This document shows positions 5,511-64,000 of a stretch of DNA of 64,000 bases, piece by piece. The stretch covers positions 62,001 to 126,000 of the forward strand of contig JAKSGN010000022.1 in assembly GCA_024180945.1 (NCBI GenBank), given 5' to 3'. The notes beneath the pieces were generated by a model. It had not been told where the DNA came from. It did not search any database and saw only the letters and a list, made by a program, of their open reading frames with translations. Numbering within the stretch: the first letter of the stretch is position 1; every line of letters starts with the position of its first letter. Origin of the DNA: Macrophomina tecta. Its lineage: Eukaryota; Ascomycota; Dothideomycetes; Botryosphaeriales; Botryosphaeriaceae. The translations under genes and the position numbers were made by a program.

Positions 5511-5860
5511 ATTCAAAGTTAAAGGGTCGCCAGAAGAGAACAGGGTGGTAAGCGTCCCGTTTTCTGCCGTCATGGGCCGTCTGACGAGACGAGACGACAC
5601 GGCCAGGGGCCATGACGAGACGTGACGGCAGAAACCGGCCGGTGACGAGTCGGTGACGATATGACGGAAAGCTTAGTAAGCATATATCCATGGTGTTGAG
5701 TTGGGAGGCCGGGATGAGGGTATCGTTTGCTAGCATCACCCATATTAATTATACTGCTTTCTCCGCACCCCATCCACAAGCTCTCTTCGCCAGCTCACCA
5801 GCTACGAGTCTAAAGCGTTTCACGATAGATGACGTCATTCCATGGTGTTAAGTCTCATTG
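5511..5860. other. junction sequence with two hAT-like termini
   Basis: This stretch carries ccatggtgttgag at 5688-5700 and ccatggtgttaag at 5840-5852, both resembling the termini of hAT element C at 9514 and 11945. The second probably closes the 3' end of hAT B. The first, 150 nt away in the same orientation, has no partner. Around 5560-5660 there are repeated gacgag/tgacg words and no gene. Confidence 0.4.
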
Positions 5861-7213: not shown

Positions 7214-7468
7214 AAGCCCAATTAGGCTCGAGGAATCACCCTCTCAGCAGCTAGCTGGTTTTTTTTACTTGGCTAGAGAGTCAGCCTTCGTTCAGAAGCT
7301 CAAATCTCCAGCGAGCACACCAAATTCTTATAGATGGCGAGTGGGATCTTGAAGGGCTAAGGAATGATATTTCTACAGTACAGTGGGCTAGTTGGGGCTT
7401 GCCCGAGGGCCTTCTTCAGCGCCTCAAACGTGAGGTACGTCGCCATAGAGGCGTACGGCTCGCTACTA

Positions 7469-15287: not shown

Positions 15288-18200
15288 AGCCCCTACGAAG
15301 TGTCCAATTGAACATCTGGAAAACAAACGAATGCATGGAAGCCCTAATCAATGACCCAGATACAGAGGGAATCGACATCCTTCTTATTCAAGAACCACCA
15401 GTCTCCTTCTTTAAAACTCTACCACAACACCGCTCATGGCATCTATACACCCCAACCTATGCTGGAACCCAAAAGAAACGATCTGCTATCTACGTAAATA
15501 AGAGGATCTCTTCCTCTGCACAACGGCAGGTCCCATGCAACAGCCGGGACATTACAGCTGTTCAAATTCAGACACCAAACCAGCCAATAATCATCTTCTC
15601 AGTTTACATACCACCAATGGGAGGAACCCAGCAGTCTGCTGAGAACGAAATGCTGGCCGCTCTTCAAGCGGTTCGCCAGTCGATAAGGAAGCAGACAGCA
15701 AACACCACCCCAGGCCTTATCCTTGGAGGAGACTTTAACAGACAAGATCCACTGTGGGGCGGAGATAACATTAAACCATACCTAGTGGGAAGCGCAGCAT
15801 CCTTAATCTCATTTATGGAAGAACGCCAGCTTCAGAGCCACCTTCACCGCGGCACACCAACTTGCTACGCTAACAACAAGGCTGACAGCAAAACGACGCT
15901 AGACCTCACCCTTAGCAACACCCCAAACCAGCTGATCAAGTGCGAACTCCTTGACCAAAACTACGGGTCAGACCACAGAGCCATCTACTCCGAATGGAAC
16001 ACGGATGTTGAACTGGCAAACACACGGCCGCCACGAAAGCTCTACGAACGGACAGACTGGACGAAGGCGGGGCTAGCTATCCAGCGCGCCCTTGGGCAAG
16101 CGAGAGAAATTGTCACGCAGGAACAACTTGATGAGGCAGTCGAGCAGCTCATCAGCGTCACCGCGGCCATTACAAACGAGCTAACTCCAACTGCTAAGCC
16201 ATCCCCGTACTCAAAGCAGTGGTTCAGCCCGGAGCTCAAAGAATACCAAGCGAAATACAACAAGCACCGCCGGCTGTGGCAAACCTTTAGTGCAAGCCTT
16301 GGAAGAGACAATCCAGACACGCTGGGTCAGTACAGCGCCATGAAAACAGCCCGCAGAGAATGGGTAAAGGCGATAGCACACGCAAAGAGCAGCCATTGGA
16401 AGGACTTTTTGGATAATGCAGGAAAGGGTAACCAACTATGGAAGGCAGCCAAATACGCCAGTCCAAGTGACAACTACAGCAACATCCCCCCGCTTTCAAC
16501 CGGTAATGGAGACGTTACGGAGAATGGAGAGAAGGCACAGCTCATACTAGACACTTTCTTTCCAAAACCAACTGACCCACAACCTCCACCTCAACCCGCT
16601 ACAGTACCTCCTATGTGGTGGGAACCAATCACCAAGGCCGAAATCTACCAGAGTCTAAACTCCACCAAAGCCAATTCTGCCCCTGGAGAGGATGGCCTCC
16701 CAATGCTTGTCTGGCAAAAGCTTTGGCCTCACATTGCCAAGCACATCCACCACATCTTCTCCGCATCCATTAATCTCGGCTACCACCCAAAAGCCTGGCG
16801 AACAGCAGCGATCATCGTCCTCCGGAAAGCCGGCAAGCCCGACTACACAATCCCTAAAGCATACCGCCCAATCTCTCTGCTCAACACACTTGGAAAACTG
16901 CTGGAAGCAGTAATAGCAAAGAGGCTATCCTACTATGCTGAGAAGCACAATCTCCTCCCGACCACCCAGTTCGGTGCAAGACCAGGCAGGCCCACAGAGC
17001 AAGCCCTACTCATCCTAGTTGATGCAATATGGAAGGCCTGGAAAGAACACAAAGTAGTCACTCTAATGGCATTCGACCTAAAAGGTGCCTTCAATGCAGT
17101 AAACAAGGGGTCACTTGACTACTGTCTAGCTAAGAGAAGGATTCCAACCAAAGCAAGGTGCTGGATTATGAGCTTCATGGAGAACAGGGCTGCCTCGGTA
17201 TCGTTCGATGGCTACACCAAGCCAGCAGCAGCCCTAGAACACCCCGGCCTCCCCCAAGGCTCCCCACTCTCCCCAATCCTATTTGCCTTCTACAACGCCG
17301 ACCTGGTGGACCAGCCAGCAGACTTCACTGGAGGAGCATCTGCCTACATTGACGACTACTTTCGATGGCGAACTAGCTTATCTGCAAGCAAGAATCTCGC
17401 AGCCTTGCAGAGAGAGGACATCCCAAGAATGCAACGATGGGCAGAGCAAACCGGATCAAGCTTTGAAGCCGACAAGACGGAGCTTATACACTTTACAAGA
17501 AGTCCAGACCAGAACTGCTTAGCAGCAATAGCAATGGGCAACCACATAATTGAGCCTAAGCAAGAAGTGAAGCTCTTAGGAGTCATCTTTGACCAGCAGC
17601 TCCGGTGGAGAGCCCATGTCCAGAGAGCAGCCACACGAGCAACCAAGACCTGCCTAGCCATAGGTAGACTAAGGCACCTTCGACCAAAACAGATACGCCA
17701 GCTTTATCAAGCATGCGTAGTTCCTCAACTGGATTACGCCTCAACCGTCTGGCACTCCCCAAAGAAATGCAAATGGCAAGTGGCAGTGCTCTCCAGGATT
17801 CAGCGGATGGCAACAACCAAGGCTATCTCAGCCTTTCGAACCGTATCAACCGAAGCACTGGACTACGAGAACTTCCTCCTACCAACAAAGCTACGCCTCC
17901 AAGCCCGAGCAGAGAGGGTTATTTCCAACCTTAGAACACTCCCAACCTCGCACCCATGCAAGGCTCTTATTGACAAAGCAACCTTAACGCTTAATCTAGC
18001 AGTTAGCTTCCTCAGCCCCCTTAATGCAACTCTCAAGCTACAAAGCCCAAGCCAGGCGGAGGACACTGAAGTAATTGACACCTGCCCCCTCCCACCATGG
18101 AAGGCCCTGCCACTAGACAATATCCAACTGCAACTACCCAAATCTCAGACTCTAGAGGTTTTCAAGGAAGAGCTCCAATCGGACCGGACGAAGAGGATCT

Positions 18201-19153
18201 TCACAGATGCATCCAAAGTAAGAGAACAGCTTGGAGCAGCTGCAGTAATCCTCGGCCAGGAACAGAGAATCCACAGACAAGCCCAGAAGGGGGTTGGCTC
18301 TAGCAAGTTCTACAGCATCACAGCCGCTGAGCTTATTGCTATCAACACCGGCATGGAACTAGCAGTGGAGCAGAATCTCGAAGAAGGCAATTCAAACCCA
18401 GCATCCTACACAATCTACAGCGACTCCAAGGCAGCCCTGCAAGCACTGGCAAACCCACACAAACGGCGATCCGGCCAAGGCATAGTGCGCTCGATTACAG
18501 AAGCAGCTCAGCATATTAGGGACAGCCATCAGATTAACTTCTCTCTTCAATGGGTTCCAAGCCACAGTGGGATCAGAGGGAATGAAGAAGCGGATAAGCT
18601 TGCCAAAGCTGCAACCACCCGCCTTAGAGAACACAGTTTTGGACCACTGGCATCACTTCAGGCCCAGGCAGCCAAGGAAGCAGTGCAAAGAACTTGGGCA
18701 GCAGAGTGGGAAAACTCAGACAAAGGCCAACACCTCCGAAGCATTGACACAGCTCCACCAGGCCCCCACACCCGGCATCTATATGACAAGCTTCCACGGA
18801 GTCAGACTGGTCTTCTTGCCCAGTTGCGAACTGGCCACTGTTGGCTCAATCAACACCGCACTCGAATGGGCCGGATCAATAATGAACAATGCGAATGTGG
18901 AGAAGTTGAATCAGTTTCCCATGTCCTTCTTGACTGCTGCTTGCTCCAGCAACGCCGACAAAAGATGTACGAAGACAGTGGACTAGAACGGAACAACTTG
19001 TCTGCTCTACTTGGTGGAAAGCCTCTGAGCAATGCTGCACCTACCCAGAGCAAAAGTCACAAAGGGAAGACAACAGCATCACAGCTTCAGGCTGTGCTAA
19101 GCTTTGCACAAGACTCACAACGGTTTAAGAATAGAGATGAACCCACAGCTTAG
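15281..19153 (+). CDS. LINE ORF2: endonuclease, reverse transcriptase, RNase H
   Basis: The ATG at 15281 overlaps the ORF1 stop (atgctag) and gives a 1290-residue polyprotein with no stop. Domains in order: APE-type endonuclease (SVQLNIWKTNECME, LLIQEPP, GGDFNRQDPLWGG, SDHRAIYSEW; residues 1-230), reverse transcriptase (YRPISLLNTLGKLLE, FDLKGAFNAVN, LPQGSPLSPILFAFYNADL, AYIDDYFRW at about residue 688), RNase H (FTDASK, TAAELIAIN, IYSDSKAALQAL, WVPSHSGIRGNEEAD; about 970-1095) and a C-terminal zinc motif CECGEVESVSHVLLDC (about 1200). The enzyme nicks target DNA and copies the element RNA in place. All catalytic motifs are present, so it may be functional. An in-frame ATG 36 nt upstream exists but lies inside ORF1. 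Confidence 0.93.
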   Translation: MLEPLRSVQLNIWKTNECMEALINDPDTEGIDILLIQEPPVSFFKTLPQHRSWHLYTPTYAGTQKKRSAIYVNKRISSSAQRQVPCNSRDITAVQIQTPNQPIIIFSVYIPPMGGTQQSAENEMLAALQAVRQSIRKQTANTTPGLILGGDFNRQDPLWGGDNIKPYLVGSAASLISFMEERQLQSHLHRGTPTCYANNKADSKTTLDLTLSNTPNQLIKCELLDQNYGSDHRAIYSEWNTDVELANTRPPRKLYERTDWTKAGLAIQRALGQAREIVTQEQLDEAVEQLISVTAAITNELTPTAKPSPYSKQWFSPELKEYQAKYNKHRRLWQTFSASLGRDNPDTLGQYSAMKTARREWVKAIAHAKSSHWKDFLDNAGKGNQLWKAAKYASPSDNYSNIPPLSTGNGDVTENGEKAQLILDTFFPKPTDPQPPPQPATVPPMWWEPITKAEIYQSLNSTKANSAPGEDGLPMLVWQKLWPHIAKHIHHIFSASINLGYHPKAWRTAAIIVLRKAGKPDYTIPKAYRPISLLNTLGKLLEAVIAKRLSYYAEKHNLLPTTQFGARPGRPTEQALLILVDAIWKAWKEHKVVTLMAFDLKGAFNAVNKGSLDYCLAKRRIPTKARCWIMSFMENRAASVSFDGYTKPAAALEHPGLPQGSPLSPILFAFYNADLVDQPADFTGGASAYIDDYFRWRTSLSASKNLAALQREDIPRMQRWAEQTGSSFEADKTELIHFTRSPDQNCLAAIAMGNHIIEPKQEVKLLGVIFDQQLRWRAHVQRAATRATKTCLAIGRLRHLRPKQIRQLYQACVVPQLDYASTVWHSPKKCKWQVAVLSRIQRMATTKAISAFRTVSTEALDYENFLLPTKLRLQARAERVISNLRTLPTSHPCKALIDKATLTLNLAVSFLSPLNATLKLQSPSQAEDTEVIDTCPLPPWKALPLDNIQLQLPKSQTLEVFKEELQSDRTKRIFTDASKVREQLGAAAVILGQEQRIHRQAQKGVGSSKFYSITAAELIAINTGMELAVEQNLEEGNSNPASYTIYSDSKAALQALANPHKRRSGQGIVRSITEAAQHIRDSHQINFSLQWVPSHSGIRGNEEADKLAKAATTRLREHSFGPLASLQAQAAKEAVQRTWAAEWENSDKGQHLRSIDTAPPGPHTRHLYDKLPRSQTGLLAQLRTGHCWLNQHRTRMGRINNEQCECGEVESVSHVLLDCCLLQQRRQKMYEDSGLERNNLSALLGGKPLSNAAPTQSKSHKGKTTASQLQAVLSFAQDSQRFKNRDEPTA

Positions 19154-19315: not shown

Positions 19316-19854
19316 TCAACTCAACTCAATCATTGGGGGCAGCCCTTCATCCAACTCGGCCGCCGCCCTGACCACCGGGACCACCACGTTCGGCCACTGA
19401 CATCGGAGCCCCGTCTCCCTTCCCGTCGAGCAAAGCCTTTGACTAACCCCGCACTTCGTGCAGCTGTGACTGTCTTTATCGTATCTGATCGTCGACCGGA
19501 ATTCGTCCAGCTGCGCCCGCGTCAAGCCGTCGTGCTTGCGACAGCTCACCGCCGAGTGCGAATATCCCCTCTCTTCCTCTCCTCCCTCCAGCACCCAGCA
19601 TACCGGGCACGAGTCCGCCAGTTCGTTCATCACCCGCTCCACCAGCTGCCACTCCACGCCCACCTCCATCTGCCAGTCCTGCCACTCCGTCAGTCCCTCC
19701 CCACACCTGTCGCACCGCGCCCCGCCGTCGACCTCGCCGCAGCTCACCCCTTCGCCTCCGTCCAAGTATCGGCTTATCACCGCTCGCCGGCACTCCTTCG
19801 CCTCGATGAAAGCCGCCATCGCCCACACGTCTATCCCCAACCCATCATCACCTC

Positions 19855-19886
<32 letters not shown>

Positions 19887-20990
19887 TGCCGCCGCCCGGC
19901 CGCCGCCCCCCTCCTCCTCTCGACCTCCCCTTCCTCCACCAGCACCATCGAGTCCACCAGCTCCCCGGCTCGCCCGGCACGGCCGCTCTCCTGCGCGAAG
20001 TCGATCATCCCCCACGGCATGCCGACGTGAAGCACCAGCACGATGCCCTCGATGTCGATCCCGGTGCCCAGCGCCGACGTCGCCACGATGAAGCCGCCCC
20101 GCTCCAGCCAGCCGTCCAGCCTCTCGCTCCTGTCGGCCACGCCGGCGTGATAGTACGCGCAGTCGAGCTCCGCCGCCAGCTCCTCGCACCGAGCCTTGCT
20201 GCAGCAGTAGACGACCGCCTTCAAGCCGCCCGTCAGCCTCCGCTGCTGCCTCCGGCAGATCTCCACCGCCGTCGTCGACAGCACGCCCCTCGGGCACCGC
20301 TGCACGTTGTAGCGGATGCCCGGCCGCACCGTGCTCGCCCTGATGTGCATCGCGCACCGCACCAGCATGCAGTCGCCCAGCTCCTCCTCCAGCGCCGGCG
20401 GCAGCGTCGCCGTCAGCAGCACCATCGGGCAGCCCAGCACCCGCAGATCCTTCAGCCTCGCCAGCCTCGGCCGCCAGCCGTTCGCCGTGAATGTCAGATG
20501 ACACTCGTCGATGAAGATGCGCCTCAGCAGCCCCTGCCCGGCCAGCAGCGACGCGTAGCTGAGAAAGCCCCAGCTCGCCGCCACGTCCGCGCTGACGACG
20601 ACCACCGCGGCCGGGTTCACCTCGCCGGGGTGCCACTCGAAGCCGTCGATGCCGCTGCTCTTGAGCCGCCGCAGCACGTCCCCGACCAGCGCCCTGAACG
20701 GCACCACCACCACCGTCACCCCGGGCTCCTCGAAGCACGCCGGCACCATAAACAGCAAGCTCTTGCCCCCTCCGGTCGGCAGAACGACGACCAGCGGCGT
20801 CTGCCCGTCGAGAACGGCGTGCATAGCCCGCTCCTGCTCCACCGATCGGAACCTCACCTCCTCCCCGTCGGATTTCCGCAGAGCCTGCTGCATCGCCCTG
20901 CGTAGCTCCCCTTCCTTCTCTTCCACCGGCACCGCCCTTCCCCTACGATGATCGCCCCGCCTTCTTCTTTTCGCCATCATTTCCCTCCTC

Positions 20991-21034
<44 letters not shown>

Positions 21035-24000
21035 GTCGCCGTTACCATTGCCATTATTATCGTTTTCCTCCAGCTCTATATCCTCTTTCTCTTTCCCCCC
21101 CTCTCCTCTGCCGTTCTCTAAGCCCGGGCCACCGCTGCCCTTTCTTCTTCTCTTTTTTCCCTTCCCCTTCCCCTTGTCACCCTTTATCGTCTCCATCGGC
21201 GCCGGCTTACCGCTCTCGAGCCCTAGAAACGCGTGCCACCTGCCGCTGAGCGGCCGGAACGTCTCCAGCGAGCGAATGCTCAAGTGCTTGACGATGTTCA
21301 CCGGCACCCCGTAGTTTATGACTCCGATTGCGGTCGTGCGCCCGTTCTGCAGCTCCAGCGCGCTCTCCCCCCCTTCTTCGTCCTCCATCTCGGCCTCCTC
21401 GATCTCGCCCACCTCGTCCTGACAGCCCCGCGAGAAGCCGTCGCCGACCATCACCCTGCCGATGCCCACCGCTGCGTGTCGGTAGTCGTGCGTAGTCAGA
21501 CGGTTGCCCAGCCGCACCTCGGTCTCCCGCACCATCACCCGGGTCAGCCGATCCGTCTCCCACGGCCCGCGGGCGTCCGCCCAGACGTAGTCCGTCCAGC
21601 CGCCGCCCAGCACCTGCACGGCCAGATACTCTGCCAGCGGCTGCACGTACGCCATATGCAGCGCCATCAGCTGCCCGACCCGCCACGGCAAGAACCGCGG
21701 CACCACCTTCGGCCTGTCCCACTGAGACTGCGACTTGTGATAGCGGGTGACGAAGACGACCTGCCCGTCCATGACGAATATGTTGCGGTCCTGCATCATG
21801 CCGTTGCGGTGCCGCAGCGCCGTGATCTCCGTGCCCCTCGCCGGTTGCCCGCCGGTGATGTGAACCGCGAGCAGCAGCAGCTCCAGAAAGCGGTCCACCC
21901 GCCTCAGATATCTGCGCACCAGCCTCGCCCTCCACGCCGACGACAACGGCAGCCGCCCCTGCCGTTGCTCCTGCTGTTGCCCATTCTGCTGCCGCCGCCC
22001 CTGCTCTTGCTCTTGCTGCTGCTGCTGCTCTTCTTCCGGCTCCAGCAGCTCCGCTCGCATCATCCTTCGGCCCTCCTTACTCTGCATTACCCCCTCCAGC
22101 ATCATCCGTAGCCCTTCGCTCAAACCGTTGTCCGTCCTACTCACAAACGAAATTCCCCGTTTTGTGAATGTGACGTCGTCCACGATATCCTCTAGCGGGA
22201 TCGTAAACCGTCCTCCTCTTCCCCCCCGCCTCTTCTTCTTCTCCCTCAACCCCTCTTTCTCCGCCGCCGCCACCGCCATCCACATCAGCTCCCCCCACAG
22301 CAGTTCCTCCGCATCATCGACCAGCGTCCGAGCCATTTCCTGAAACCGCGCGATCACGATCGGCCTGCCGTATAGATAGAAGATCCTGCGGTCCGTCGAC
22401 CACCACGAGTTGCCCGAATTGCCCTCGGCCATCGCCACGTGCTTGCCGTGCGCCAACAAGCTCAGCATCGTGCTCATCGGGCTGTACGAGCCGTCCGCCA
22501 GATAGTCCTTCCGCATCTCTAAGAACCACTCCCTCTCGGCCTCCCTTTGCTCCCTCCGCTTCGCCGGCGGCAGCAGCTGCTCGATCGCCAGCACCCGCAC
22601 GCAGTAGACGACGCCGGCCAGCCTGTACGAGTAGTCCTTCGCCCGCCGCAGCCGTCCCGTCTCCTGATCGATGCCCAGCACCGCCAGAAAGTGAACGAGC
22701 CCGCTGTCGAACGGCCGATCGCCGACCCGCTGAAAGACAAACGAGCACGACAGCCGAAGCAGCCATTTCGTCTGCTCCGCCTGCGCCTGCTCCGAAGTTA
22801 AGCTCAGCGCCAGCCGTAGCCGCCTCGCCGAGTGTCTTTGCTCACCCGTCCATTTGAACAGCCTGCGCGCATCCCGTAGCACCCTCAGTCTTTCTTCCTC
22901 CTCCTCCTCCTCCTCCTCCTCCTCCTCCTCCTCCTCCTCCTCCTCCTGCTGCTGCTCCTGCCGCTGCTGTTGTTCTTCTCCTGCACCATCGCCGTCTCCA
23001 TCGCCGCCACCCTCACGATTCCTCTCCCCCTCCCCATCTTCCTCCCCCTCTTCATCTTCACCCCAGTCATCAAGCTCCTCCCTCGCCATGAAAATCCTCA
23101 GAGCGTAGCAGATGAACTGCCTCCAGTAGCCGGCGTACTTGTACTGACTGTCCCTGTTCTGCAGCCGGGCAAGCGGCCGCTGATCCACCTCCTCCTTCTT
23201 CGCGCTCCGCAGCCACCGCTTCGTCTCGAGTCCCAGCGTCCGGAGCCCGGCGACGCCCTGCTCGATCAGAAGATCCACCAGCCTCGCCACCTTCTGCAGC
23301 TCGTGCTCGTCCCGCCCCGGCAGAGCCGCCGCCGCCGCCAGATGATTGAAGTTGCAGCGCGCCAGATGCTCCTCCCAGCCGGTGCGGTTCTGCCAGCCGG
23401 TGCGGTCCTGCTTCGCCACCTCGTCCTCCATCACCGCCATCTCCTCGTCGTGCTTCTTCGCCGCCGCCGTCCACTCATCCAGCAGCTTGCCCACGCTCTT
23501 CTCCGCCCTTTTATCCATCCCCTCCAGCGCTCCCTCTGCCTCAGCTCCATCTCTTTCACCCTCCCTTCCGCCACCACCGCCATTATCATCATCACCATCA
23601 CCACCCCGTTCCATCATTACCGCGAAGAACTGAGAAGCTTGCCTGCTCGGAAAGAAACGCTGACACCGCACACCCCGCCTCCACGGCTCCTTGCCGGCGG
23701 CCCGCAGCTGATCGGCCTTGCTGGGGCGGCCTCCCCGGCCCTGCTTAGTCCAGCCGTGCGCGTCCCTGCAGTGATTCCTCATGCGGTTTTCGTTCCTGCA
23801 CACAAACCGGCACCGATCCGACTCCACCTCGCACAGCAAACCATCCGGGAATATCGGCAGCTGCGGGATCGCCGCCTCGACGGACGCCGGCACTTCCAGC
23901 TCGGCCGGGCGGCGCAGCAGACGGTCGCCCCAGAGCTCGATCAGCTCATCCGACACGGCCTGAGCCTGCCGCCGGCTCATTCTATGCTCGCCGCCCCGTA

Positions 24001-24097
24001 GATGCGCGCCGACCGCGTCCGGCCAGACGGCGTGCCGGCATTTCCTGCACGCGACCAGCCCGAATGCCGGTATCTGCTCGAAATGCGCGCTCGCCAT
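19316..24097 (-). CDS. tyrosine recombinase-RecQ-type helicase fusion protein
   Basis: One intron-free frame encodes 1593 residues. The N-terminus has a C2H2-like/OrsD-type module (FGLVACRKCRHAVWPDAV...HLRGGEH, residues about 12-40) and a second finger (CRFVCRNENRMRNHCRDAH). A tyrosine-recombinase domain follows: R754 in GQPARGTE, K788 in RYHKS, H870 and R873 in THDYRHAAV, and Y929 in GVINYGV. After poly-acidic linkers comes a superfamily 2 helicase: LPTGGGKS (Walker A, K1112), IDECH (1196-1200), TATLPP, YYHAG, TSALGTGIDIEG and QESGRAGRAG (1369-1378), which is RecQ-like. A cysteine-rich tail (CDRCGEG, CPVCW, CTKC) ends the protein. Poly-E, poly-D and poly-Q tracts occur. The coding strand is strongly GC-rich, unlike its neighbours. 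The stop lies in the tcaac array at the LINE 3 junction, so the native C-terminus may be altered. It probably belongs to a Crypton-like or telomere-linked-helicase-like element. Confidence 0.85.
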
Positions 24098-24264
24098 TAC
24101 CGAGATTCGGATTGCTAGAAAGCAATCGAAGTTAAGAATCGAGACTAAACGGGTTAATAACGAATAACTAGTTATAGATAGATCTAATAGTATAGAAAAT
24201 ACGATCTAAATATAAAACGTAGTATTAAGATTCCCTCTATTAAACTAGATAAATTCATTGAATC
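24098..24264. promoter_or_regulatory. AT-rich upstream region of the recombinase-helicase gene
   Basis: A 167-nt AT-rich spacer separates the two same-strand recombinase genes. It must contain the promoter of the downstream fusion gene and the 3' end of the upstream gene. It has several tata-like words but no motif that can be assigned with confidence. Confidence 0.4.
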
Positions 24265-26910
24265 CTAAAACTCCACGCGCACTCTTTTCAATGCCGCATT
24301 TCCTTGGTCGGTCTTCTCCTTAAGTGGGCGTTTTCGAGCCCCCAAATACACCCGAAAACCAAGAAAACTATGCCATTCCCTGCTTACCGCTCGGTATTCC
24401 CTCCTTCGCGCTTCGATGTGGCCCGGCGCCTCTTGTAATCCTCTCGCATAGACCGTTCCTGCAATCCAAGAGCCGTGACTCGCCTGTTCATCAGCCAATT
24501 CCTTATCGATCCCATAATCCCGCTTGAAACCACCACATTTTAGGTGTTGACGGGAGATTGCGATGGCCATATGCCGATACATCGTGATGTTCAGCCGGGT
24601 GTTGAAATAAACCTCCGTTTCCCTGATAATCACCTTGCTTAGACGACCCGCGTCCCAGCTCCCCACTCCTCTTGGCCAGAGGTACGCCGATGGTGGGTCC
24701 CTGCGCTTGTTGGCCAGAACATCGAGCTTCTGCCAGAATGGAAGCACGAGCCAGAGATAGTAGACTAGCAGCTCGCTGACCTCCCTCGGCAGGTACCGGT
24801 GAATGATCTTAGTCGACCCGGTAATGTTATAGCCTTTGTGATAGGATGTGACCGTTCCAACCAATCCCTCCTCGATGAAGATACCCCGATGGTGGCCCTG
24901 CGTAGTGTTGCTGTGTTGTAGGCTCATCAACTCAGTGCCCCGTGCCGGCTGGCCTGACGTGAAGTGGATCAGGAGCAGGAGCCGCTCCAGGAACAGATCA
25001 ACCTTTGTAAAGTATGCTTGTACAGCCTTCCTCCTCCAGCGTATCTGTTCCTCAGGCGTGACGAATAGCATCTCATCTATTAGCCAGTCGTTGCGTGAGA
25101 CCCTGTCGAGCAACCATCGATCGCTGCCTGCTTGAAGCTGCGCCTTGTTGCGCGGATCCTGAAGAAAATTCCAGCCCACCTGGCCGTTGCTATGGTCATC
25201 ACGAAGGCGGTGTAGATGAAAGGTGGGCACGACTTCCTCGCGGCTCTCTTCCGGATGAAGAAGTAAGAGATCCTGTAACTCCTGCTGGGCCTGCCTTAGC
25301 TGCGCCGCCACAAAGTCCCGGAGCGCGTCCATGCTAAAGCTCGCGTCCTTGTAGGTGACCGTCTCTCCATCCTCCGACCATATAATATAGCCGAGCGAGG
25401 TGGTGTTGCTTACCACTTTCTTCGCGTATGCACGCAGACGGCAGGCCCAGTCGAACGCGGTGCGAGACCCACGCACCATGAAGCGCTCCCGCATCTCGTC
25501 CAGCATGTCTGACGGATACTCGACGGCGCCCTCTTCGGCGGCTAAAACAGCTCTCTGCACCACGAGCATCTGCGCGATCTTGATAAACTTGGAGAGATCG
25601 GGGGAGTAGCTGAGCGGTCCGCGAAAGACGCAGCCTGGCTTCTCGTCAACCCCAAGTACGGCGAGGAAGCTGAGCACGACACTCTCGAAATGGCTTCCCT
25701 TGAGCGTGTGATCAAGCAAAGAGATGCAAAGATTGAGGCAGGCTCTGTCTAACTTAGTAACGATCGCTGTTTCCTCGCCTCTCATCGTTGTACCGTCCTC
25801 TCCTGTGGCTCTCTGTGTTCTCAAAGCGGCCAGCTCATCGGCGAGAGAGATGGCACGGTCCAGGTGGAGGAGCTGGGCGGCGGTAAATCGGTGGGGTAGC
25901 GGGGTCGGCTGATCGGGCTTGCTGGTGCGGTAGGCGAAGCAAACGAGGCGTTTCCACAAGTCTTTATAGGCGCGGAACGTTCCTTTTTGCAACCTGATCA
26001 TAATCATCCGTTCTTCCTTCGCCGACTGGCTAACCACAAAGCTGTTGATCCTGGCCTGATCAAACACGCTGATCCTATCTTCGCATATCGACCGGTGTGC
26101 TTGCTCGACGATGCGGTCGAGGCTGTCGGTTAAGATATGTAAATGCGGCTCGGTGACTGGGTTTGCAGCGTATGCAAGCGGCACCGCGCTAGAAGGGTCA
26201 ATGCCGCTAAAGTACTGCGGCCAGCGGGTCATCTCGAGCCATGGAGAGACATTCGTTTGGCTGTTGGGTTGATCATCATATACTCGCGCGAATCTCCGCT
26301 GCTCATAGCCGCTCCGTTCGAGCTCTTCGTCGAGGAGGCCTTGGACAACATCGGCTTTCTCCACGGGGGCCGACCTCTTCCGTTCCTTGCTCTCCGCAGA
26401 GACCGAGACGGTGAAGTAGGAGCTTTGGTGCCTGCTGGCGAAGAAGCGCTGACAGTAGACCTTCTGGAACATTGGCCCGTCGTCTTCTCTAGGCGTCTTC
26501 GGGATTTTCTTCTTAGGGGCGCCGGGCTTGCGCGGGATAACGCGATGGATGTTAAAGTGTTTTTGCATGGCTTCTTCGCCCCACTTGGTGGCCGCACGTA
26601 CAAAATCACAACGGCTACACTGGAAGCCCCGGTAGACCCGCAGTCCCGGGATAGGGGCAGCCTCTGGCGGTGGTCTCTTGATTTTAACAGTTTGGGGATC
26701 AAGGATGTTGAACGTCGTTTGCAGATGAGCCGCGAGCGCGTCAGCTGGCCTCGTCGCATTAGCTAACGCAGGTTCGATCCTGCAAGCGTGACGGGCGTCT
26801 TCTAGGTGTCTGGTAGCGATGTGGCTGCGAAGGTGAGATGGTGCGACGGCGAAGGCGCACGGTTTGCATATCAGCACGCCGTATTCTTCCTGGAAATCGA
26901 AGATGTCCAT
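24265..26910 (-). CDS. OrsD-like / tyrosine-recombinase protein
   Basis: An intron-free 881-residue protein shares its whole plan with the N-terminal two-thirds of the neighbouring fusion but lacks the helicase. The N-terminal finger is VLICKPCAFAVAPSHLRSH followed by FQCSRCDFV...KHFNIHR. The C-terminal recombinase domain shows R657 in GQPARGTEL, K692 in SYHKG, R779 in TMYRHMAIAISR, H812 in ASHGSW and Y821 in GTVYARG. The H-to-Y spacing of nine matches XerD-type enzymes, while the HxxR histidine is replaced by T776. Tyrosine recombinases cut and rejoin DNA through the tyrosine. It lies 167 nt upstream of the fusion gene on the same strand and may form a two-gene unit with it. Assignment to Cryptons is inference; a domesticated or telomere-linked gene is the alternative. 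Confidence 0.8.
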   Translation of the reverse strand: MDIFDFQEEYGVLICKPCAFAVAPSHLRSHIATRHLEDARHACRIEPALANATRPADALAAHLQTTFNILDPQTVKIKRPPPEAAPIPGLRVYRGFQCSRCDFVRAATKWGEEAMQKHFNIHRVIPRKPGAPKKKIPKTPREDDGPMFQKVYCQRFFASRHQSSYFTVSVSAESKERKRSAPVEKADVVQGLLDEELERSGYEQRRFARVYDDQPNSQTNVSPWLEMTRWPQYFSGIDPSSAVPLAYAANPVTEPHLHILTDSLDRIVEQAHRSICEDRISVFDQARINSFVVSQSAKEERMIMIRLQKGTFRAYKDLWKRLVCFAYRTSKPDQPTPLPHRFTAAQLLHLDRAISLADELAALRTQRATGEDGTTMRGEETAIVTKLDRACLNLCISLLDHTLKGSHFESVVLSFLAVLGVDEKPGCVFRGPLSYSPDLSKFIKIAQMLVVQRAVLAAEEGAVEYPSDMLDEMRERFMVRGSRTAFDWACRLRAYAKKVVSNTTSLGYIIWSEDGETVTYKDASFSMDALRDFVAAQLRQAQQELQDLLLLHPEESREEVVPTFHLHRLRDDHSNGQVGWNFLQDPRNKAQLQAGSDRWLLDRVSRNDWLIDEMLFVTPEEQIRWRRKAVQAYFTKVDLFLERLLLLIHFTSGQPARGTELMSLQHSNTTQGHHRGIFIEEGLVGTVTSYHKGYNITGSTKIIHRYLPREVSELLVYYLWLVLPFWQKLDVLANKRRDPPSAYLWPRGVGSWDAGRLSKVIIRETEVYFNTRLNITMYRHMAIAISRQHLKCGGFKRDYGIDKELADEQASHGSWIAGTVYARGLQEAPGHIEARRREYRAVSREWHSFLGFRVYLGARKRPLKEKTDQGNAALKRVRVEF

Positions 26911-27264
26911 TTTCTTTCTCCACGAGACGTGCGTCTGGATAAGATGTAAACAAACCAGGCGTAAAAGTAGGCGTGGTAGTAAAGAAACCGGAGGGCAGAA
27001 GACGGTGAAGACGGTAAAGAAGACGAAGGCGAAGAAAAGATATACGCGTATATAGCGCGTTGGGACGCGACGCGTCTAGGGATAATCGAGTCAGGTGTAA
27101 GAAACTCCATTTGACTTTACTTGAGATAGCTAGTCGAAAGAAGAGGAAGCGGCTGAAGGAGCGGTAACAGCAGCCGAAGCGGCAGAATTTTGATGAGGCG
27201 AGCGAAGACGGGACGCTAGTGCAAAAAGAGGTATAAAACCCATGTTGAATCCAATTTCGAGTTG
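26911..27264. other. upstream region of the recombinase gene
   Basis: No gene is seen. The stretch is purine-rich on the plus strand (gaag repeats at 26990-27040) and includes gacgcgacgcgtc near 27066. It presumably holds the promoter of the minus-strand 881-residue gene. At its right end (27265) LINE 4 starts without a recognisable 5' end. Confidence 0.35.
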
Positions 27265-54197: not shown

Positions 54198-55315
54198 TTA
54201 TGCTATTACATCAATGCCTCTTGACTTTAGATTAAGAAACAATGGCTTCTTATCCCAAACAAGATATGCTTTTTGATCCATCCAACGCCTGTCCGTTCGC
54301 TCATCTAGACTTATATCAAAGTTGAGGACAATGTTCGCAAGGATAGCGCGCATCTCGTGCCATGCAAGGCTATAGAAAATATGTGTTAGTTGAATTGACC
54401 CAATATATTAGTATTGTTAAAATGCAAGAGATTTAGAAACACGTACTTCTTACCCACACAGTTCCGCGGCCCGAAACTAAAGGGCTCTAGCACATTTCGC
54501 TGATCATTGGCAAAACATTTATCGGCATTCGTTAGCCATCTTTCAGGGCGAAACGCGTGGGGATCGAAAAAGTTGGCCTCGCTATGGTAAGCAGCAAAGT
54601 GCGATACGTAGACGGTTGTCTGAACTTGGTCAGCAAGGTTGTTGGTGGTCTGCCTAGGGCGAAACATCGGAATTATTTTGCTTTGTCTTTACCTTTCTAG
54701 CCACTGGTTTCCCACAAATAATGGCTCCTTCCGTTGGAGTGATGCGGGGAAGCCCGTTCGGCCCCGGGAGGTATACGCGTAATGCTTCCAGCAAGCAAGC
54801 ATTCAAGTATGGCAGCCGAGTCAACACCTGCATGGAGAGATTTTCTCCGCGAGAAGTTTGGCACACCTCCTCGACCAAATTATCCAATTTGTCCCTGTTT
54901 TCGCATAGCAGCCAAAGCACGCCGCTGAGCAGAGTGGCTGTCGTCTCTGTGCCAGCCGCGATAAGAGCTGAAGCGTTCGCATATATCTCATCGAGGTCAA
55001 GGCCCCCCTTTCTCGCATCCATCGATGTGTTGCGTAGTACAAATGTCCAAATATCCGGTCTTATGGCGTCCCGGCTCAACCGCCTGTCGATATGCTCTTT
55101 TGTGAATTGACCGTGGGCAGCACGCCTCGCCGCCATGCCGCGCAGTATGGTCCTGGTAATTACCCACATTAGAAGTGGGGAAGCGCTCTGCAGTGTGCCG
55201 ACAATGCCAATGAACCTGATTGTGCTTACGGCGCCGGAAACCCAGGGGACATAATCGGTGCGTTTGAGGAGGCCGAGAGGCTCGCCGAAAGTCATGTCTG
55301 TCATGATATCTATTC
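54198..55315 (-). pseudogene. cytochrome P450, 5'-truncated
   Basis: Exons 55315-54693, 54619-54447 and 54369-54198, with GT-AG introns of 73 nt (54620-54692) and 77 nt (54370-54446), give the C-terminal about 320 residues of a microsomal-type P450. The I-helix reads SALIAAGTETTATLLSGVLW. The ExxR motif lies in LNACLLEALRVY, and the PERW motif in DPHAFRPERW. The heme loop is FSFGPRNCVGKNLAWHEMR, spliced across the second intron so that Cys is the heme ligand. The N-terminal anchor and first half are missing; upstream sequence is lost at pogo element D (55324). Substrate cannot be inferred. A TGA lies just above the first retained codons, or a splice acceptor is there. Confidence 0.85.
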
Positions 55316-55323
55316 AAGGTGTA

Positions 55324-57175
55324 ACGTACTCCACAAGCGAGTCGCGCACACAACCGAGCCGCGCACCTCGCCAACTTTCGCAACACGTCAGCTTTCAACT
55401 ACTATGGCTCAACCAATTACTACCCAATCAACCTATAACGAAGGAGATATCTTCCTTGCTATCTCAGCTATTAATAAAAAGCAAATTCAGAGTGAAAGAC
55501 GCGCCGCATCAACGTTCAACGTCCCCCCAAGCACGCTCCGCGACCGACGCGCTGGAACGCAGCCACGACGCGATTGTGAGGCTAACTGCAAGAAGCTCAC
55601 CAAATCTGAAGAACTAGCGATTATCCAGCATACGCTTGACCTAGATTCACGAGGGTTTCCGCCTACGAAGCAGATGATACGAGCTATGGCTGATAAACTG
55701 TTGAAGGCTCGTGGCGGCCAGCCAGTTGGCATAAACTGGCCAGATAACTTTATCAGGCGCACGCCTGAGCTAAAGGCTCAGCGGAGCCGCGCATACAATC
55801 GCCAGCGAGCCTTGAATGAGGATTACCAGGTCATCAGCAAGTGGTTCAAGCTTGTAAGCTCTATTAAAGAGAAATACGGCATCCAAGACGAAGACAGCTA
55901 CAACTTTGATGAGATTGGCTTTATGATGGGGGTTATCTTAGCCCAATCAGTTGCCACAGGCTCAGATAGGCGTGGCAGGCCAAAGGTGGTTCAGCCAGGC
56001 AATCGTGAGTGGGTTACCGTGATCCAGGGAATCAACGCTGCTGGATGGGCGATCCCACCTTTCATCATCTTTGCGGGCAAGCACCACCTCTCTACCTGGT
56101 ACAAGGGCAACGATATACCTCGCGATTGGGCTATTGGATTGAGCGACAATGGATGGACCAACAATGAGCTTGGAGTCGCGTGGTTGAAGCACTTCAACGC
56201 GCACACGAAGACGCGTACCGTGGGCACGCATCGGCTGCTAGTAATCGATGGCCATGAGAGCCATATATCACTTGAATTCCAAGAGATCTGCAAGGAGAAC
56301 AATATTATTGCTCTCTGTATGCCGCCACATTCGTCACACCTACTGCAGCCACTTGATGTGGGCTGCTTCTCTCCATTAAAGAAGGCATATGGGCGCCAGA
56401 TCGAGAGCTTGGCGCGCAACCACATCAACCATATCACCAAGCTCGAGTTCTTACCTGCCTTTAAAGCGGCTTTCGACGAGTCAATTACAAAGAAGAATAT
56501 CTGCGCAAGCTTTCGAGGCGTAGGCCTTGTGCCACACAACCCAGATGCTGTGCTATCAAAGCTTGATGTTCAGCTGCGGACGCCGTCACCACCTGCTGCG
56601 GAGAATACCATATGGGAATCGAAAACACCAAGCAACGCCCGCGAGCTGGAGTCTCAATCAACGCTAATTCGCAATCGTATTCAAAGGCATCAAGATTCTT
56701 CGCCTACGTCGATTATCCAGTCGCTCGATCGGCTCACTAAGGGCGCTGAGACAATGGTGCATGAGATAGTCTTGTTACGCGATCAGGTCTCAAGCCTTCA
56801 GAAGGCAAATGAGGCAGCCACAAGGCGTAAACAACGTCAAAGAAAGCGGATCCAGAAGCAAGGCACTTTAACAAAGGCAGAGGGCGAGGATATTATCGCT
56901 CAAAACGACGTTGATGAGCAGCTTACGAGCGAAACGCGTCAAAATAAGGCGCCGGCAGGCACGGGTGAGCTACGTAAAAGACGCTGTAGGAGCTGCGGCA
57001 AGATGGGCCACAATTCTCGTACGTGCAGAAAGAATACTTAAGAGACCTCTTAAGCTATAATAGTTATTGTACTTGTAGTATCTTAATGCGTTGTTAAGCT
57101 ATATGGCTGCAAAGGTAGAGAAAGTTGGTGAGGTGCGCGGCTCGGTTGTGTGCGCGACTCGCTTGTGGAGTACGT
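55324..57175 (+). mobile_element. pogo/Fot1 element D, complete
   Basis: The ends are inverted repeats of about 57 bp (55324-55380 and 57119-57175) beginning acgtactccacaagcgagtc, with only one or two differences. TA dinucleotides at 55322-55323 and 57176-57177 form the target duplication. The 1852-bp element holds one intact gene. Confidence 0.95.
55404..57041 (+). CDS. pogo/Fot1 transposase D, intact
   Basis: The 545-residue protein is complete. The N-terminus has a psq-type helix-turn-helix (AASTFNVPPSTLRDRR) and a CENP-B-like domain (TLDLDSRGFPPTKQM, NWPDNFIRRTPEL). The DDE_1 core shows YNFDEIGFMMG, LLVIDGHESH and LLQPLDVGCFS, the DDD triad of pogo elements. A coiled coil (about 440-470) and a C-terminal zinc knuckle CRSCGKMGHNSRTC follow. 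Pogo transposases excise and insert at TA. It is about 70 percent similar by eye to transposase A at 40288-41898 but has kept its knuckle. With intact ends, it is a candidate active element. Confidence 0.93.
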   Translation: MAQPITTQSTYNEGDIFLAISAINKKQIQSERRAASTFNVPPSTLRDRRAGTQPRRDCEANCKKLTKSEELAIIQHTLDLDSRGFPPTKQMIRAMADKLLKARGGQPVGINWPDNFIRRTPELKAQRSRAYNRQRALNEDYQVISKWFKLVSSIKEKYGIQDEDSYNFDEIGFMMGVILAQSVATGSDRRGRPKVVQPGNREWVTVIQGINAAGWAIPPFIIFAGKHHLSTWYKGNDIPRDWAIGLSDNGWTNNELGVAWLKHFNAHTKTRTVGTHRLLVIDGHESHISLEFQEICKENNIIALCMPPHSSHLLQPLDVGCFSPLKKAYGRQIESLARNHINHITKLEFLPAFKAAFDESITKKNICASFRGVGLVPHNPDAVLSKLDVQLRTPSPPAAENTIWESKTPSNARELESQSTLIRNRIQRHQDSSPTSIIQSLDRLTKGAETMVHEIVLLRDQVSSLQKANEAATRRKQRQRKRIQKQGTLTKAEGEDIIAQNDVDEQLTSETRQNKAPAGTGELRKRRCRSCGKMGHNSRTCRKNT

Positions 57176-58329: not shown

Positions 58330-59144
58330 TCACAAGAGAAAATGCGCTCCCAAACTTCCTTCAACGATAATCTTCCGCCAGAGCACACTTTCTTCAAGCT
58401 TCTTTGTTAACTCATTGATGTTCTCTTCCTTTGTTCCATTTGCATCAACCTACATCCGTCAGTATCTCATTCCAGATAGATTGTTCAATACCTACATCGA
58501 TCAAAATGCCATGTTGCCGATACACTTCTTCAACCGCCATAGTCTCTAACTCATATTCGGCGAAACGCCTCTCAAACTTCTCATTGCTGTCATTGCTATC
58601 CCGCGCTCGGGCTAGATATCTCGCTTTCGCATTTTGCATGGTAACCTTTAAAGATAGCACAATGTCCGGTTTTGCATTCGCGCTCACCCCACCGTCACTG
58701 TTCGGAGCAAGTGGCAATTCGTCCTGGAACGGCCATGTGTTGAAGGATTCTAGTTGCTCTGTGCATCGCGGGAATCCATCGACTAGAATGCCTCGGGATT
58801 TCGGTCCATCTTGGTAGATAGCGTCCTTGACCGCCTGGCGAATAAATGGATTCAAATCGTCAGAAGTAAGAAATCCCTGATTGTCGAGTTTGTCTTGGAT
58901 TTTAACTGCGAGTGATGTGGTATTGTTGCCGCGCATCCAACGGCGGAGGCTATCGCCGACAGAGTAGTGTGTCAGGTTGTGTGTTTGTGCGAGATGACTG
59001 CAGAGTGTTCCTTTCCCGGCGGCAGGCGCTCCTGAAACTTTATTGGCGCAGGGTCAGGGCAAATTGGAAGGTCTAAGGGCACGCACCAAGGACGAAAATG
59101 ACCGCAAAGTTGCGGGGAGTGGGGACAGAAGGTATAGTTTCCAT
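58330..59144 (-). CDS. nucleoside monophosphate kinase (adenylate/UMP-CMP kinase family)
   Basis: Three exons (59144-59087, 59031-58496, 58449-58330) with GT-AG introns of 55 and 46 nt give an unbroken 237-residue protein. The P-loop LGAPAAGKGT (about residues 19-28), the NMP-binding region (YSVGDSLRRWMR), the signature VDGFPRCTEQLESF, a short lid (YLARARDSNDSNEKFERR) and a terminal ENINELTKKLEES helix mark a short-lid NMP kinase. Such enzymes phosphorylate NMPs to NDPs with ATP; whether AMP, UMP or CMP is preferred cannot be told by eye. It is divergently transcribed from the viperin-like gene, sharing 365 nt upstream, so co-regulation is likely. A role in supplying CTP precursors to viperin is inference, by analogy with vertebrate CMPK2, which belongs to a different kinase family. 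Confidence 0.88.
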
Positions 59145-59509
59145 AGTGCTAGTCGGCCGTGAGGTCAATATGACTTAGACAGAGTCGGTAGTTTCGGCGT
59201 GGGTGGTGTCAAGGGAAAAGAAGGTGAGACAGTTGTGATAGCTCTTTATCGCAACACTATGAGTGGAGAAGTTCGATATTATTTTAGACACGCGCTACGA
59301 ATGGCGGAGCGCAAGCGCCAAATTTAGCATTCGGTCCGAGGTTATCGCATGAACGCGCAGATATGAAAACCAATCAAATTTCAAGCATTTCCAAGTGGCC
59401 ACGTCAGTAGCGATCACCAACTTTCCCACATTCCGTCCCTTGCTGAAGAGACCGAGTTCACACCTATTGTTAAGCTGTTTACCGACGCATAATCGGAGCG
59501 TACCTGGTC
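59145..59509. promoter_or_regulatory. shared divergent promoter region of kinase and viperin-like genes
   Basis: The 365 nt between the two start codons must contain both promoters. No known binding site can be assigned with confidence. The compact head-to-head layout suggests joint regulation. Confidence 0.55.
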
Positions 59510-60568
59510 ATGGCTATTATTGCTCTTCTGACGAATGTACCGGCTGCCCTATGTCTCTTCATTGCTATCCTATACGCCGTTTTCACGTCCACCGGAATCA
59601 AGAGATACTTTAGAGTGAACGCCATTAACAAGCCACCTGAGGACCCATCAAAAGGACCGGACGCCCCAGTTTCCGTGAACTACTTCCCATCTCGAAAATG
59701 CAACTACACATGCGGCTTCTGTTTCCACACTGACACCTCTTCTTACGTCCTTCCTATCGATGAGGCGAAACGTGGTCTGCGGTTGCTAAAAGAGGCCGGC
59801 ATGCGCAAGCTCAACATCGCGGGCGGAGAACCCTTCCTTTATCCTCATCTCCTCACCGAACTACTCCGCTATTGCAAGGAGGAGCTAAGCGTCGAGAGTA
59901 CAAGCATCGTGAGCAACGGCAGCAAGATCAAGGAAAAGTGGTTGCGAGAAAATTGTCAGTGGCTGGATATTCTGGCAGTGTCTTGCGACTCATTTAATCC
60001 GGAGACGAATAAAAGAATTGGGCGTGGCGACGATGGAGAGAATGCGGTTCGGCTGTTTCGCATCGCGGAGTGGTGCAGGAAATACGGAATTAAGTTCAAG
60101 TTGAATACCGTTGTTAACACACACAACTGGGACGAAGACATGGTCGCCAATATTGAACAGCTGGCACCATTCCGATGGAAAGTATTCCAGTGTCTCATCG
60201 TCGCTGGCGAGAACGACGACGAGACGAGAAAGCGAGACGCGAGGACCTTCCTAGTGGCCGATGAACAATGGCGAACGTTCTGTGACCGGCATAAGCATAT
60301 TCCGTGCTATGTTCCGGAGGACAACCAATCCATGGCGAGCAGTTACCTGCTTCTAGACGAGTACATGTGTTTTCTGGACAAAGGAGCTGGTGTGATGACA
60401 AAGAGCGAGTCGATTTTGGAAGTCGGCGTCAAGAAAGCTATGAAGCAGATTGTTTGGGACAAGAAGTCGTTTGTTGAACGAGGTGGTATTTACGATTGGG
60501 GCAGATCGGGCGTGCAGCAGCAGAGTGTTTGTAGCGGTGGTGGGAGCAGGAAAGAGTTGGAATGGTGA
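59510..60568 (+). CDS. rsad2-like: viperin/RSAD2-like radical SAM enzyme
   Basis: One exon encodes 352 residues, close to the 361 of human viperin. The N-terminus is a hydrophobic helix (residues about 1-27) that should anchor it to the ER or lipid droplets. The radical SAM cluster motif is CNYTCGFC (C64, C68, C71) within a viperin-type context, VNYFPSRKCNYTCGFCFHT. Further family motifs are KLNIAGGEPFL, SIVSNGSKI, LAVSCDSF, KLNTVVN, WKVFQCL, YLLLDEYMCFLDKG and ESILEVGVKKA, and the C-terminal Trp (KELEW) needed by animal viperin for iron-sulfur loading is kept. Viperin converts CTP to ddhCTP, a polymerase chain terminator. All motifs are intact, with no stop or shift, unlike most neighbours. 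An antiviral or anti-element role in fungi is inferred. Confidence 0.93.
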   Translation: MAIIALLTNVPAALCLFIAILYAVFTSTGIKRYFRVNAINKPPEDPSKGPDAPVSVNYFPSRKCNYTCGFCFHTDTSSYVLPIDEAKRGLRLLKEAGMRKLNIAGGEPFLYPHLLTELLRYCKEELSVESTSIVSNGSKIKEKWLRENCQWLDILAVSCDSFNPETNKRIGRGDDGENAVRLFRIAEWCRKYGIKFKLNTVVNTHNWDEDMVANIEQLAPFRWKVFQCLIVAGENDDETRKRDARTFLVADEQWRTFCDRHKHIPCYVPEDNQSMASSYLLLDEYMCFLDKGAGVMTKSESILEVGVKKAMKQIVWDKKSFVERGGIYDWGRSGVQQQSVCSGGGSRKELEW

Positions 60569-62022: not shown

Positions 62023-64000
62023 CTATTGCCTCCAGCCCAATTGCTTCCTACTCATATAAACCTCGTTGTAGCTATTAACACGTTGTTGCTTGCGAGGCGA
62101 GAGTCGAATAGGCAGCTCTAGCGGGCGCTTGCGAGTAAGCCGTATTGGCATTGTAAGTAGCAGTGGTGGAGGCGACGGAGTTGCGATTGAACGTGCCGAT
62201 GAGAGAGGTGAATTAGAAGGCGATTGAAGGAGTAACCGGGCCCACTGCTGCTGCTGCTGAATAACGTACTCTTGGCCCTGCTGGTGTTGATATTTAAGAA
62301 GAGGCCGCCACCGTCGCTCGTACATATCGCGGTGTTGCACTACTCTCCCACGCCTTATAACCTCTAGATGACGGTCTTCATAAGGCTGTAATTCAGCCTC
62401 GCATTCAAAGTTGGTAATACGGCGTCTTTGCGTTTCAATCCTTGACTTAAGGAAGCGCACATCACTCTCCTTGCGCCACACCGTTTTATTGGCCTGCGGA
62501 TTAGCTAGCTGGGCGGCAAAGAGCGTCTCCTTCGCCTTACTCAACTCAACCTCCAGGCTCTGAAGAACAGCCCGGGCGCGCTTAGCCATTACTCCCCATG
62601 TTGTTTCTGATGGTGAGCCAAGCTCAGGCCATTCAATTGGTCCTGTGTAGCCTAGTATAGGTGTAGAAGGTATGCGGGGTGGCGGTGAAGTCCATGTACG
62701 GCTTAGAACGTCCTCCAGGGGCGTTCTTGGTAGAGGAGTACGGTGGGTGTTGGTTTCCGCAAGTGCTGACGGCGGCACAACGTCATCGCTAGAGCTACTA
62801 GAGTCGCTAGAGTCGCTTTCGGGGCTGATTTCAATAGGGCTTACATCGCCGGGTGAGCTGGAGCCGTCGCTTGGTGGTTCATGGCCTTGTACGTTGACGG
62901 TGCTAAGGCTTGGAAGTGCGCAACGAGGTTGATATTTTCGCCCAGGTGTCTTATCAGTCTTATCGGTCCCTCCGCTAGGCCTATTATGGGTGCTGCTAGG
63001 CCTATTTTGGCTGCTGCCTGGCCTCTCTGCTGTCTCTGCTTGTATTACGGCCGCCTCCGCTTCTTCATCAACACCTACTCCACCAATATACGGCCCAAAT
63101 GGCTCAGGATTCCGACGGCAGCGCAGCTTGCCATGACCGCTGAAGCCGCAAATTGAGCAGCGGTACGTCCTAACAGGCCTGGCAGGTCCTTTTGGCGCTT
63201 CCTTACGCTTCGTTTGCTGACGTCCGGAGCGGCTTCTAATATTTGGTGGCAAGAGTTCACCCTCCACTAAGTAATCCAGCTCTAGCGGCTTTAACGATAG
63301 TCGGTACGCCTCTCTCTGCGTCTCAAGCTTCCACATATCGCTAATCCAGAGGTGTTCAGGCCGTCTCTTCATGCGCAAGGCCAGCGCGCAGGCGTGTTCA
63401 CAAGGGAGTCCTTCGTCCAGCCAATCCATGCAGTTACAGCGGTTGTCTGCTAACGCCACCTTATAGTGAACCTCTCCCTCATCTAGAGACACAATAACCT
63501 TGCCGGAGCCGTCAATCTCGTTAGCGGGCGTCGCTTTCATTTGCTGCGCAATAGCCGTATGCTCCTCTAGCTTGCGCGCCGCGTATGTAGTAAGTCTAAA
63601 GGCGTTAGGGTGTGTAGCTGTACGCCGCTTAAAGAAGCACGCCTGTACTAAGTTATATATTTATTCTAGTGCCTTGAGCGGCTGCTGATGACGCGCATTA
63701 TTAATCTGCTTATTCATCGACTCTACTGGATTATTCGTTATATTGTTGTAGCGCCGGAGGCCTGCTGGCTGCGTACACCTTGCCCAGTGGCTGAGAGTTA
63801 TATTTGATACGTAAGTTTCGGCGTCGCTATTTACCTCTCGAAGGCTCCTTATATGATGAGAAAAGGCCGCCTCCTTCGCTGCATAGGCAGCCCGTCGAAA
63901 GTGCTTTGCAGCTAACGCGCTAAACTTCTTATGAACGTTACGAGCCATATGATTAATACAGTAGAAGTGGTGAAGGTGGAGGACGTCTCTAACGGCTTTA
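62023..64000 (-). pseudogene. MULE transposase, C-terminal part, one nonsense codon (partial)
   Basis: The frame enters from the right edge with VRDVLHLHHFYCINHMARN, then YNNITNNPVESMNKQI, the end of a MULE transposase domain. A TAA at 63661-63663 interrupts it (fits CAA to TAA). Reading then continues in the same frame with a SWIM zinc finger (CNCMDWLDEGLPCEHACAL, near 63430), a CCHC knuckle (YRCSICGFSGHGKLRC, near 63150), a serine-rich acidic stretch, a helical region and a basic tail ending at 62023. The catalytic DDE residues lie outside the window. SWIM plus knuckle after the DDE domain is a known MULE arrangement. Confidence 0.8.

Follow-up and report, generated by a model that had tools for sequence, protein, structure and literature searches.

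Pairing of viperin-like and nucleotide monophosphate kinase genes, head to head in Macrophomina tecta and recurrent in ascomycete fungi

A viperin-like gene and a nucleotide monophosphate (NMP) kinase gene lie head to head in the 64,000-nucleotide stretch of the Macrophomina tecta genome analysed here (the window), and their linkage is not accidental but recurs in many ascomycetes. The results suggest that the pair is copied and inherited together and that fungi have built a viperin–kinase partnership of their own. We consider it probable that the two genes form a conserved module of filamentous ascomycetes, in which a viperin making 3′-deoxy-3′,4′-didehydro (ddh) nucleotides is served by a dedicated NMP kinase and the pair as a whole is antiviral.

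By motif, full-length NF038283 match and modelled fold, the window viperin belongs to the viperin/SAND family. Its sequence contains the radical SAM motif CNYTCGFC as well as YLLLDEYMCFLDKG and ends in Trp; a terminal Trp, as in the animal enzyme, is found in 98 of the 120 viperin relatives listed. The protein passes the NCBIfam model NF038283 (246.6 bits, cut-off 180), falls short of TIGR04278 (392.1 bits, cut-off 450) and matches nine viperin sequences of the PDB with E values of 1e-99 or better. Its structural model (pLDDT 81) matches viperin structures with E values of 1e-38 to 1e-26, the next non-viperin structure following at 3e-11, and displays a hydrophobic N-terminal helix (residues 10–33) as in the animal enzyme. 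The best matches, which are also the closest solved structures, are the viperin-like enzymes of Trichoderma virens (PDB 7N7I, 9DGW and 9DFN; 56–57% identity).

On the opposite strand, the list of open reading frames (ORFs) gives only a 163-residue kinase piece. However, two short introns predicted from the sequence (55 and 46 nt, bounded by GT and AG) restore a complete three-exon protein of 237 residues with an undamaged P-loop (GAPAAGKGT), and the idea that the kinase is a remnant was discarded. The genes diverge from start codons 365 nt apart (Table 1), in agreement with the coordinates of a preliminary description that had reported two complete genes in this arrangement. Their surroundings include a DDE_1/Tc5-type transposase ORF (55173–57038, + strand), a SWIM-zinc-finger ORF (62026–63660, − strand), with a MULE domain match in the C28 copy of its region, and, farther away in the window, an ORF with reverse transcriptase, endonuclease and RNase H domains (15242–19150). 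Two further large ORFs (19319–24205 and 24268–27075, both − strand) contain OrsD domains, the first also DEAD and Helicase_C domains.

Table 1. Coordinates of the window pair and of features at related loci (plain numbers are window positions)
Feature	Position	Strand	Remark
Viperin gene, type A, single exon, 352 aa	59510–60568	+	one uninterrupted ORF
NMP kinase exon 1	59087–59144	−	gene model
NMP kinase exon 2, bulk of ADK domain	58496–59031	−	gene model, ADK match
NMP kinase exon 3, TGA at its end	58330–58449	−	gene model
Kinase intron 1, phase 1, within P-loop glycine codon	59032–59086	−	site as in type B kinase
Kinase intron 2, phase 0	58450–58495	−	site equals intron 3 of type B kinase
Divergent intergenic region, 365 nt, presumed shared promoter	59145–59509	.	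coordinates
Recent duplication in common with contig C28	57169–64000	.	at least to window end
Viperin, type B	L010:5017–5979		B locus
CYTH/thiamine-triphosphatase-like gene	L010:3125–3802; copies C21:1062387–1063064, C21:60090–60767	−	adjoins type B kinase
AAA_28 P-loop protein	L010:2080–2757	−	next to CYTH gene; relatives on C27 and C10
OTT_1508-like deaminase	L010:6249–7169	−	far side of type B viperin
Decayed type A pair	L013 (C1:16000–25999), about 5425–7262		RIP-like signature in both genes

Results of a search of the genome (54.1 Mb, 37 contigs) show viperin at six places, on contigs C20 (the window), C28, C12, C21 (twice) and C1 (decayed), and the kinase query matches all six. Elsewhere it matches only C32, where a URA6-like gene lies (E 4e-8), and, weakly, C37 (E 0.77); apart from these two, the paired kinase was not found away from a viperin in the 54-Mb genome. 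All six viperin loci have the kinase opposite with the genes diverging, across 365 nt on C20 and C28 and across 181 nt at three loci of a second type (type B). With these loci and the recurrence in other species described below, the pairing cannot be read as a single case. The C20/C28 duplication extends over at least 6.8 kb (99.6% and 99.2% identity in two stretches) and leaves the two viperin proteins identical, and the three B loci are 97.8–99.4% identical over 6.7–8.4 kb; these are recent duplicates, and the six loci are therefore not six independent events. As judged from the sequences, the independent event is instead the divergence of the pair into types A and B. The viperins of the two types are 53–54% identical and the kinases 30%, yet the latter have two introns at equal places and phases (1 and 0), and the flanking genes differ between A and B loci. 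The intergenic regions of the two types yield no conspicuous common motif, their four shared 8-mers being reached in 76 of 500 shuffles. Nor do the recent type B copies inform on selection, with too few changes and no synonymous excess (non-synonymous against synonymous: 4–10 against 0–1 in the kinase and 1–10 against 0–7 in the viperin; the CYTH gene of the C21a copy has four synonymous and two non-synonymous changes).

The preliminary description had called both genes undamaged, which holds for the window pair but not for the copy on C1, whose viperin survives as two pieces with stops. The two genes of this decayed pair show TpA/ApT ratios of 1.73 and 1.48 and CpA-type indices of 0.51 and 0.49, a combination that we take to be RIP-like; the window pair, with a ratio of 0.65 and an index of 1.19, has no such signature. 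Since the A and B duplicates are intact, either they are recent or RIP is now weak. Between the window and C28, the transposon ORF region (62026–64000) differs by 37 substitutions, mostly C to T among those listed, and the whole viperin gene by one. No telomere arrays were detected in the first 9,000 bases of C28 or the first 6,000 of C1. The position of the pair among transposons, including the reverse transcriptase ORF, might suggest that the module acts mainly against retroelements. We hold this to be very improbable, and it is the weakest part of the defence reading: the RIP-like signature on C1 points to a separate defence against repeats, and it is RNA synthesis that the known ddh products reportedly block (PMC10732462).

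Consistent with the preliminary assignment to the adenylate/UMP–CMP kinase superfamily, both kinases pass the Pfam ADK cut-off of 26.8 (72.9 bits for kinase A and 96.1 bits for kinase B), and the P-loop, GDxLR and DGFPR motifs and lid Arg of this superfamily are all present. The thymidylate-kinase family (PF02223) gives no match at 0.01 for kinase A and 18.6 bits for kinase B, below its cut-off of 27. In an alignment of 37 type A kinases chosen from the 120 listed, the P-loop Lys, the GD.LR and DG.PR Arg residues and the lid Arg, all residues with catalytic roles, are invariant. Over the 120 listed kinases DG[FY]PR occurs in 118, the lid pattern in 115 and the P-loop pattern in 73, the last figure perhaps because a short first exon escapes gene models; 70 kinases show all four patterns. 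In type A, DGFPR is followed by an insert and the lid is altered. The paired kinase is probably an active short-lid kinase.

Within the superfamily, the best NCBI model of kinase B is the UMP–CMP family, and that of kinase A is adenylate kinase (94.2 bits against 81.6 for UMP–CMP). Compared with the URA6-like protein of the same genome, kinase B is 37% identical (133 bits) and kinase A 27% (71 bits), whereas an ADK1 fragment scores 30 and 29 bits, a comparison biased by the missing N-terminal part of that fragment. For the Daldinia orthologue (model pLDDT 88), yeast uridylate kinase (1uky) leads the PDB matches, with AK1 structures and human UMP–CMP kinase ranking close behind. The linked kinases thus resemble the URA6/UMP–CMP family in fold but remain below its TIGR01359 cut-off of 207.6 bits (81.6 for kinase A, 120.7 for kinase B), which the C32 protein passes with 237.2 bits. 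A preference for pyrimidines is therefore putative, the best model of kinase A and the ranks of AK1 structures speaking against certainty.

The linkage in other fungi was gauged by equal size of the carrying contigs and by locus tags, using the best 120 of 1,573 viperin relatives and the best 120 of 134 kinase relatives. Among these listed matches, 41 of 117 distinct sizes of kinase-bearing contigs equal one of the 119 sizes of viperin-bearing contigs; of the 41, 16 do not exceed 100 kb and 9 do not exceed 20 kb, down to 3.4 and 4.1 kb for the two smallest. A control list of CYTH proteins gives 0 of 119 equal sizes, although, not being species-matched, it guards only against chance equality. 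Thirteen pairs carry numbered tags of one prefix, and in 11 of them the tags are consecutive (three in Monosporascus, three in Fusarium and one each in Daldinia, Diatrype, Diplodia, Arthrobotrys and Orbilia); the other two tag differences are 7, in Fusarium oxysporum, and 1,094, in Diaporthe batatas. A Recurvomyces pair has tags of different prefixes. Absence of this neighbourhood from related species had been named beforehand as grounds for abandoning the proposal, which the 11 consecutive pairs uphold and two do not. The genera represent three ascomycete classes, Sordariomycetes, Dothideomycetes and Orbiliomycetes.

Viperin and kinase trees built from 30 pairs (the window pair and 29 from other species, with the Daldinia loculata pair kept despite differing listed contig sizes) agree, with a Mantel rho of 0.81 that was reached in 0 of 2,000 permutations; the agreement holds within classes (0 of 2,000). 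In both trees the window pair falls with Macrophomina, and its viperin also with Botryosphaeria. A Sordariomycetes clade is rejected by both trees (p-AU 0.0053 and 0.0211), although without Colletotrichum it is no longer rejected (p-AU 0.204 and 0.0941). Viperin and kinase have in common a history at odds with the classes, arising by either joint transfer or joint duplication and loss. This bears on the proposal that the genes are neighbours by descent only, one old adjacency having been spread by recent duplications with no functional coupling. The recent origin of the C20/C28 and type B copies would fit it; nevertheless the retention of the pair in two old types with different flanking genes, its recurrence in three classes and the joint departure of both genes from those classes make it decidedly improbable.

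Type B loci show further neighbours. A gene for a CYTH-type protein adjoins the kinase and is found in the genome at the three B loci only. The protein contains the motif EVERK, which we read as the CYTH ExExK motif, and matches a thiamine triphosphatase of the PDB (E 1e-8). It has no Pfam match at 0.01, and its relative P0242 matches CYTH at 35.5 (cut-off 23.2). In two of the 120 listed matches (Neofusicoccum ribis and Alternaria alternata) the predicted protein joins a B-type kinase to a CYTH part; these may be fusions or merged gene models, and either way the two genes are neighbours there. For the AAA_28 protein, only chance-level PDB matches were obtained. Three of the genome's seven matches to the OTT_1508-like deaminase lie at B loci. 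The viperin types themselves differ in the residue after SVNY, Phe in type A and His in type B, with 98 Phe and 9 His among the 107 listed relatives in which the motif can be read (in the other 13 of the 120 it cannot). T. virens has two enzymes, one with Phe like type A and one with His like type B, and PDB entries 9DFN and 9DFU, which are its second enzyme and the F40H variant, differ exactly here, which indicates that this position has already been studied by others. The CYTH gene is a new clue to possible control of ddh triphosphates. It is conceivable, though we advance it only tentatively, that viperin and URA6-side kinase, with CYTH resetting or tuning ddh triphosphates in one lineage, make up a fungal ddh-nucleotide immunity cassette, assembled apart from those of animals and bacteria and both duplicated and inherited as a unit, the Phe and His types differing in substrate or product.

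We infer the substrates, product, co-expression and antiviral purpose of the pair, the last by analogy with the viperin family. One divergent promoter would drive both genes, such that the viperin with its hydrophobic N-terminal helix and an NMP kinase from the URA6/UMP–CMP side of the adenylate-kinase superfamily would be produced together. Using SAM and an Fe–S cluster, the viperin would convert CTP and/or UTP into ddh nucleotides, and the kinase would most likely keep the pyrimidine pool filled (CMP/UMP to CDP/UDP) and/or re-phosphorylate ddh monophosphates. The resulting nucleotide would terminate chains during viral RNA synthesis. Viperin products are indeed reported to block RNA synthesis (PMC10732462), and the viperin of Thielavia terrestris is reported to dehydrate both CTP and UTP (PMC9642334); earlier substrate proposals for viperin were UDP-glucose (PMC5850085) and isopentenyl pyrophosphate (PMC8124187).

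Fungal metabolite clusters are often patchy, duplicated and situated in transposon-rich DNA. The pair shares these traits and might thus make a ddh-nucleoside natural product for outside use in competition or signalling, with the kinase supplying the precursor or protecting the producer, and a review relays the hypothesis of antiviral natural products from a fungal enzyme (PMC9642334). This seems unlikely to us, as among the selected ORFs scanned no transporter or biosynthetic backbone gene adjoins the loci, and a monophosphate kinase suits retention of nucleotides within the cell more than export.

Linkage of eukaryotic viperins with nucleotide kinases was reportedly described by Shomar et al. 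in 2024. No description of a fungal viperin paired with an ADK-type kinase was found in the open-licence literature searched, nor any of divergent gene pairs in two lineages with common intron sites, or of the CYTH neighbour. In a mycovirus review, RNA silencing is the named fungal antiviral defence and viperin is not mentioned (PMC11355518). Should the co-inherited module be antiviral, it would represent a second, chemical layer beside RNA silencing. The pair opens the role of viperin's partner kinase to fungal genetics, and its kinase, being of another family than the bacterial partners, provides an independent evolutionary test of what a partner kinase is for.

CMPK2, the animal partner, is an enzyme of the thymidylate-kinase type. 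The fungal kinases differ from it in matching ADK, type A with no thymidylate-kinase match at 0.01, and the sole thymidylate kinase locus of the M. tecta genome is on C6, where no viperin was found. The fungal and animal systems are alike in that a viperin adjoins a nucleotide kinase, and the viperins of the window and of mouse are about 52% identical. Such neighbours are already known in animals, RSAD2 and CMPK2 being reported as adjacent and co-transcribed in humans (PMC12889620, preprint), and in bacteria, where about 15% of viperin genes are reported to adjoin a CMPK2-like kinase (PMC11249213).

With prokaryotic viperins (pVips) the window viperin shares matches to the three PADLOC pVip models. 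Thirty-four prokaryote loci were fetched, the lower-ranked being weak matches, and a motif scan of the 17 examined flagged P-loops in four ORFs, two of which resemble adjacent kinases; both of these (2 of 17 loci) are of the thymidylate-kinase/VakA type and lie downstream on the same strand. The M. tecta genes, by contrast, are head to head, and their kinases match the VakA model PDLC02911 over the P-loop part only (15.4 bits for kinase A and 23 bits for kinase B, short of a full-length match, against 229.6 bits for a Vibrio partner kinase). These scores, together with the ADK matches, led us to reject the bacterial partner type as ancestor of the fungal kinase. The bacterial loci also bear on whether the fungal kinase is kept near viperin for some other reason, such as the AMP/ADP balance of SAM-dependent chemistry or a shared promoter alone. 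That adenylate kinase is the best NCBI model of kinase A would agree with this, but we think it rather unlikely, given that bacterial viperins also adjoin nucleotide kinases (about 15%, PMC11249213; 2 of 17 loci here) and that fungi recruited a kinase independently, which speaks for a common need. Since the fungal partner comes from another kinase family, ADK-type as opposed to thymidylate-kinase-type, the association looks separately assembled, as the preliminary description had anticipated in calling the pairing convergent.
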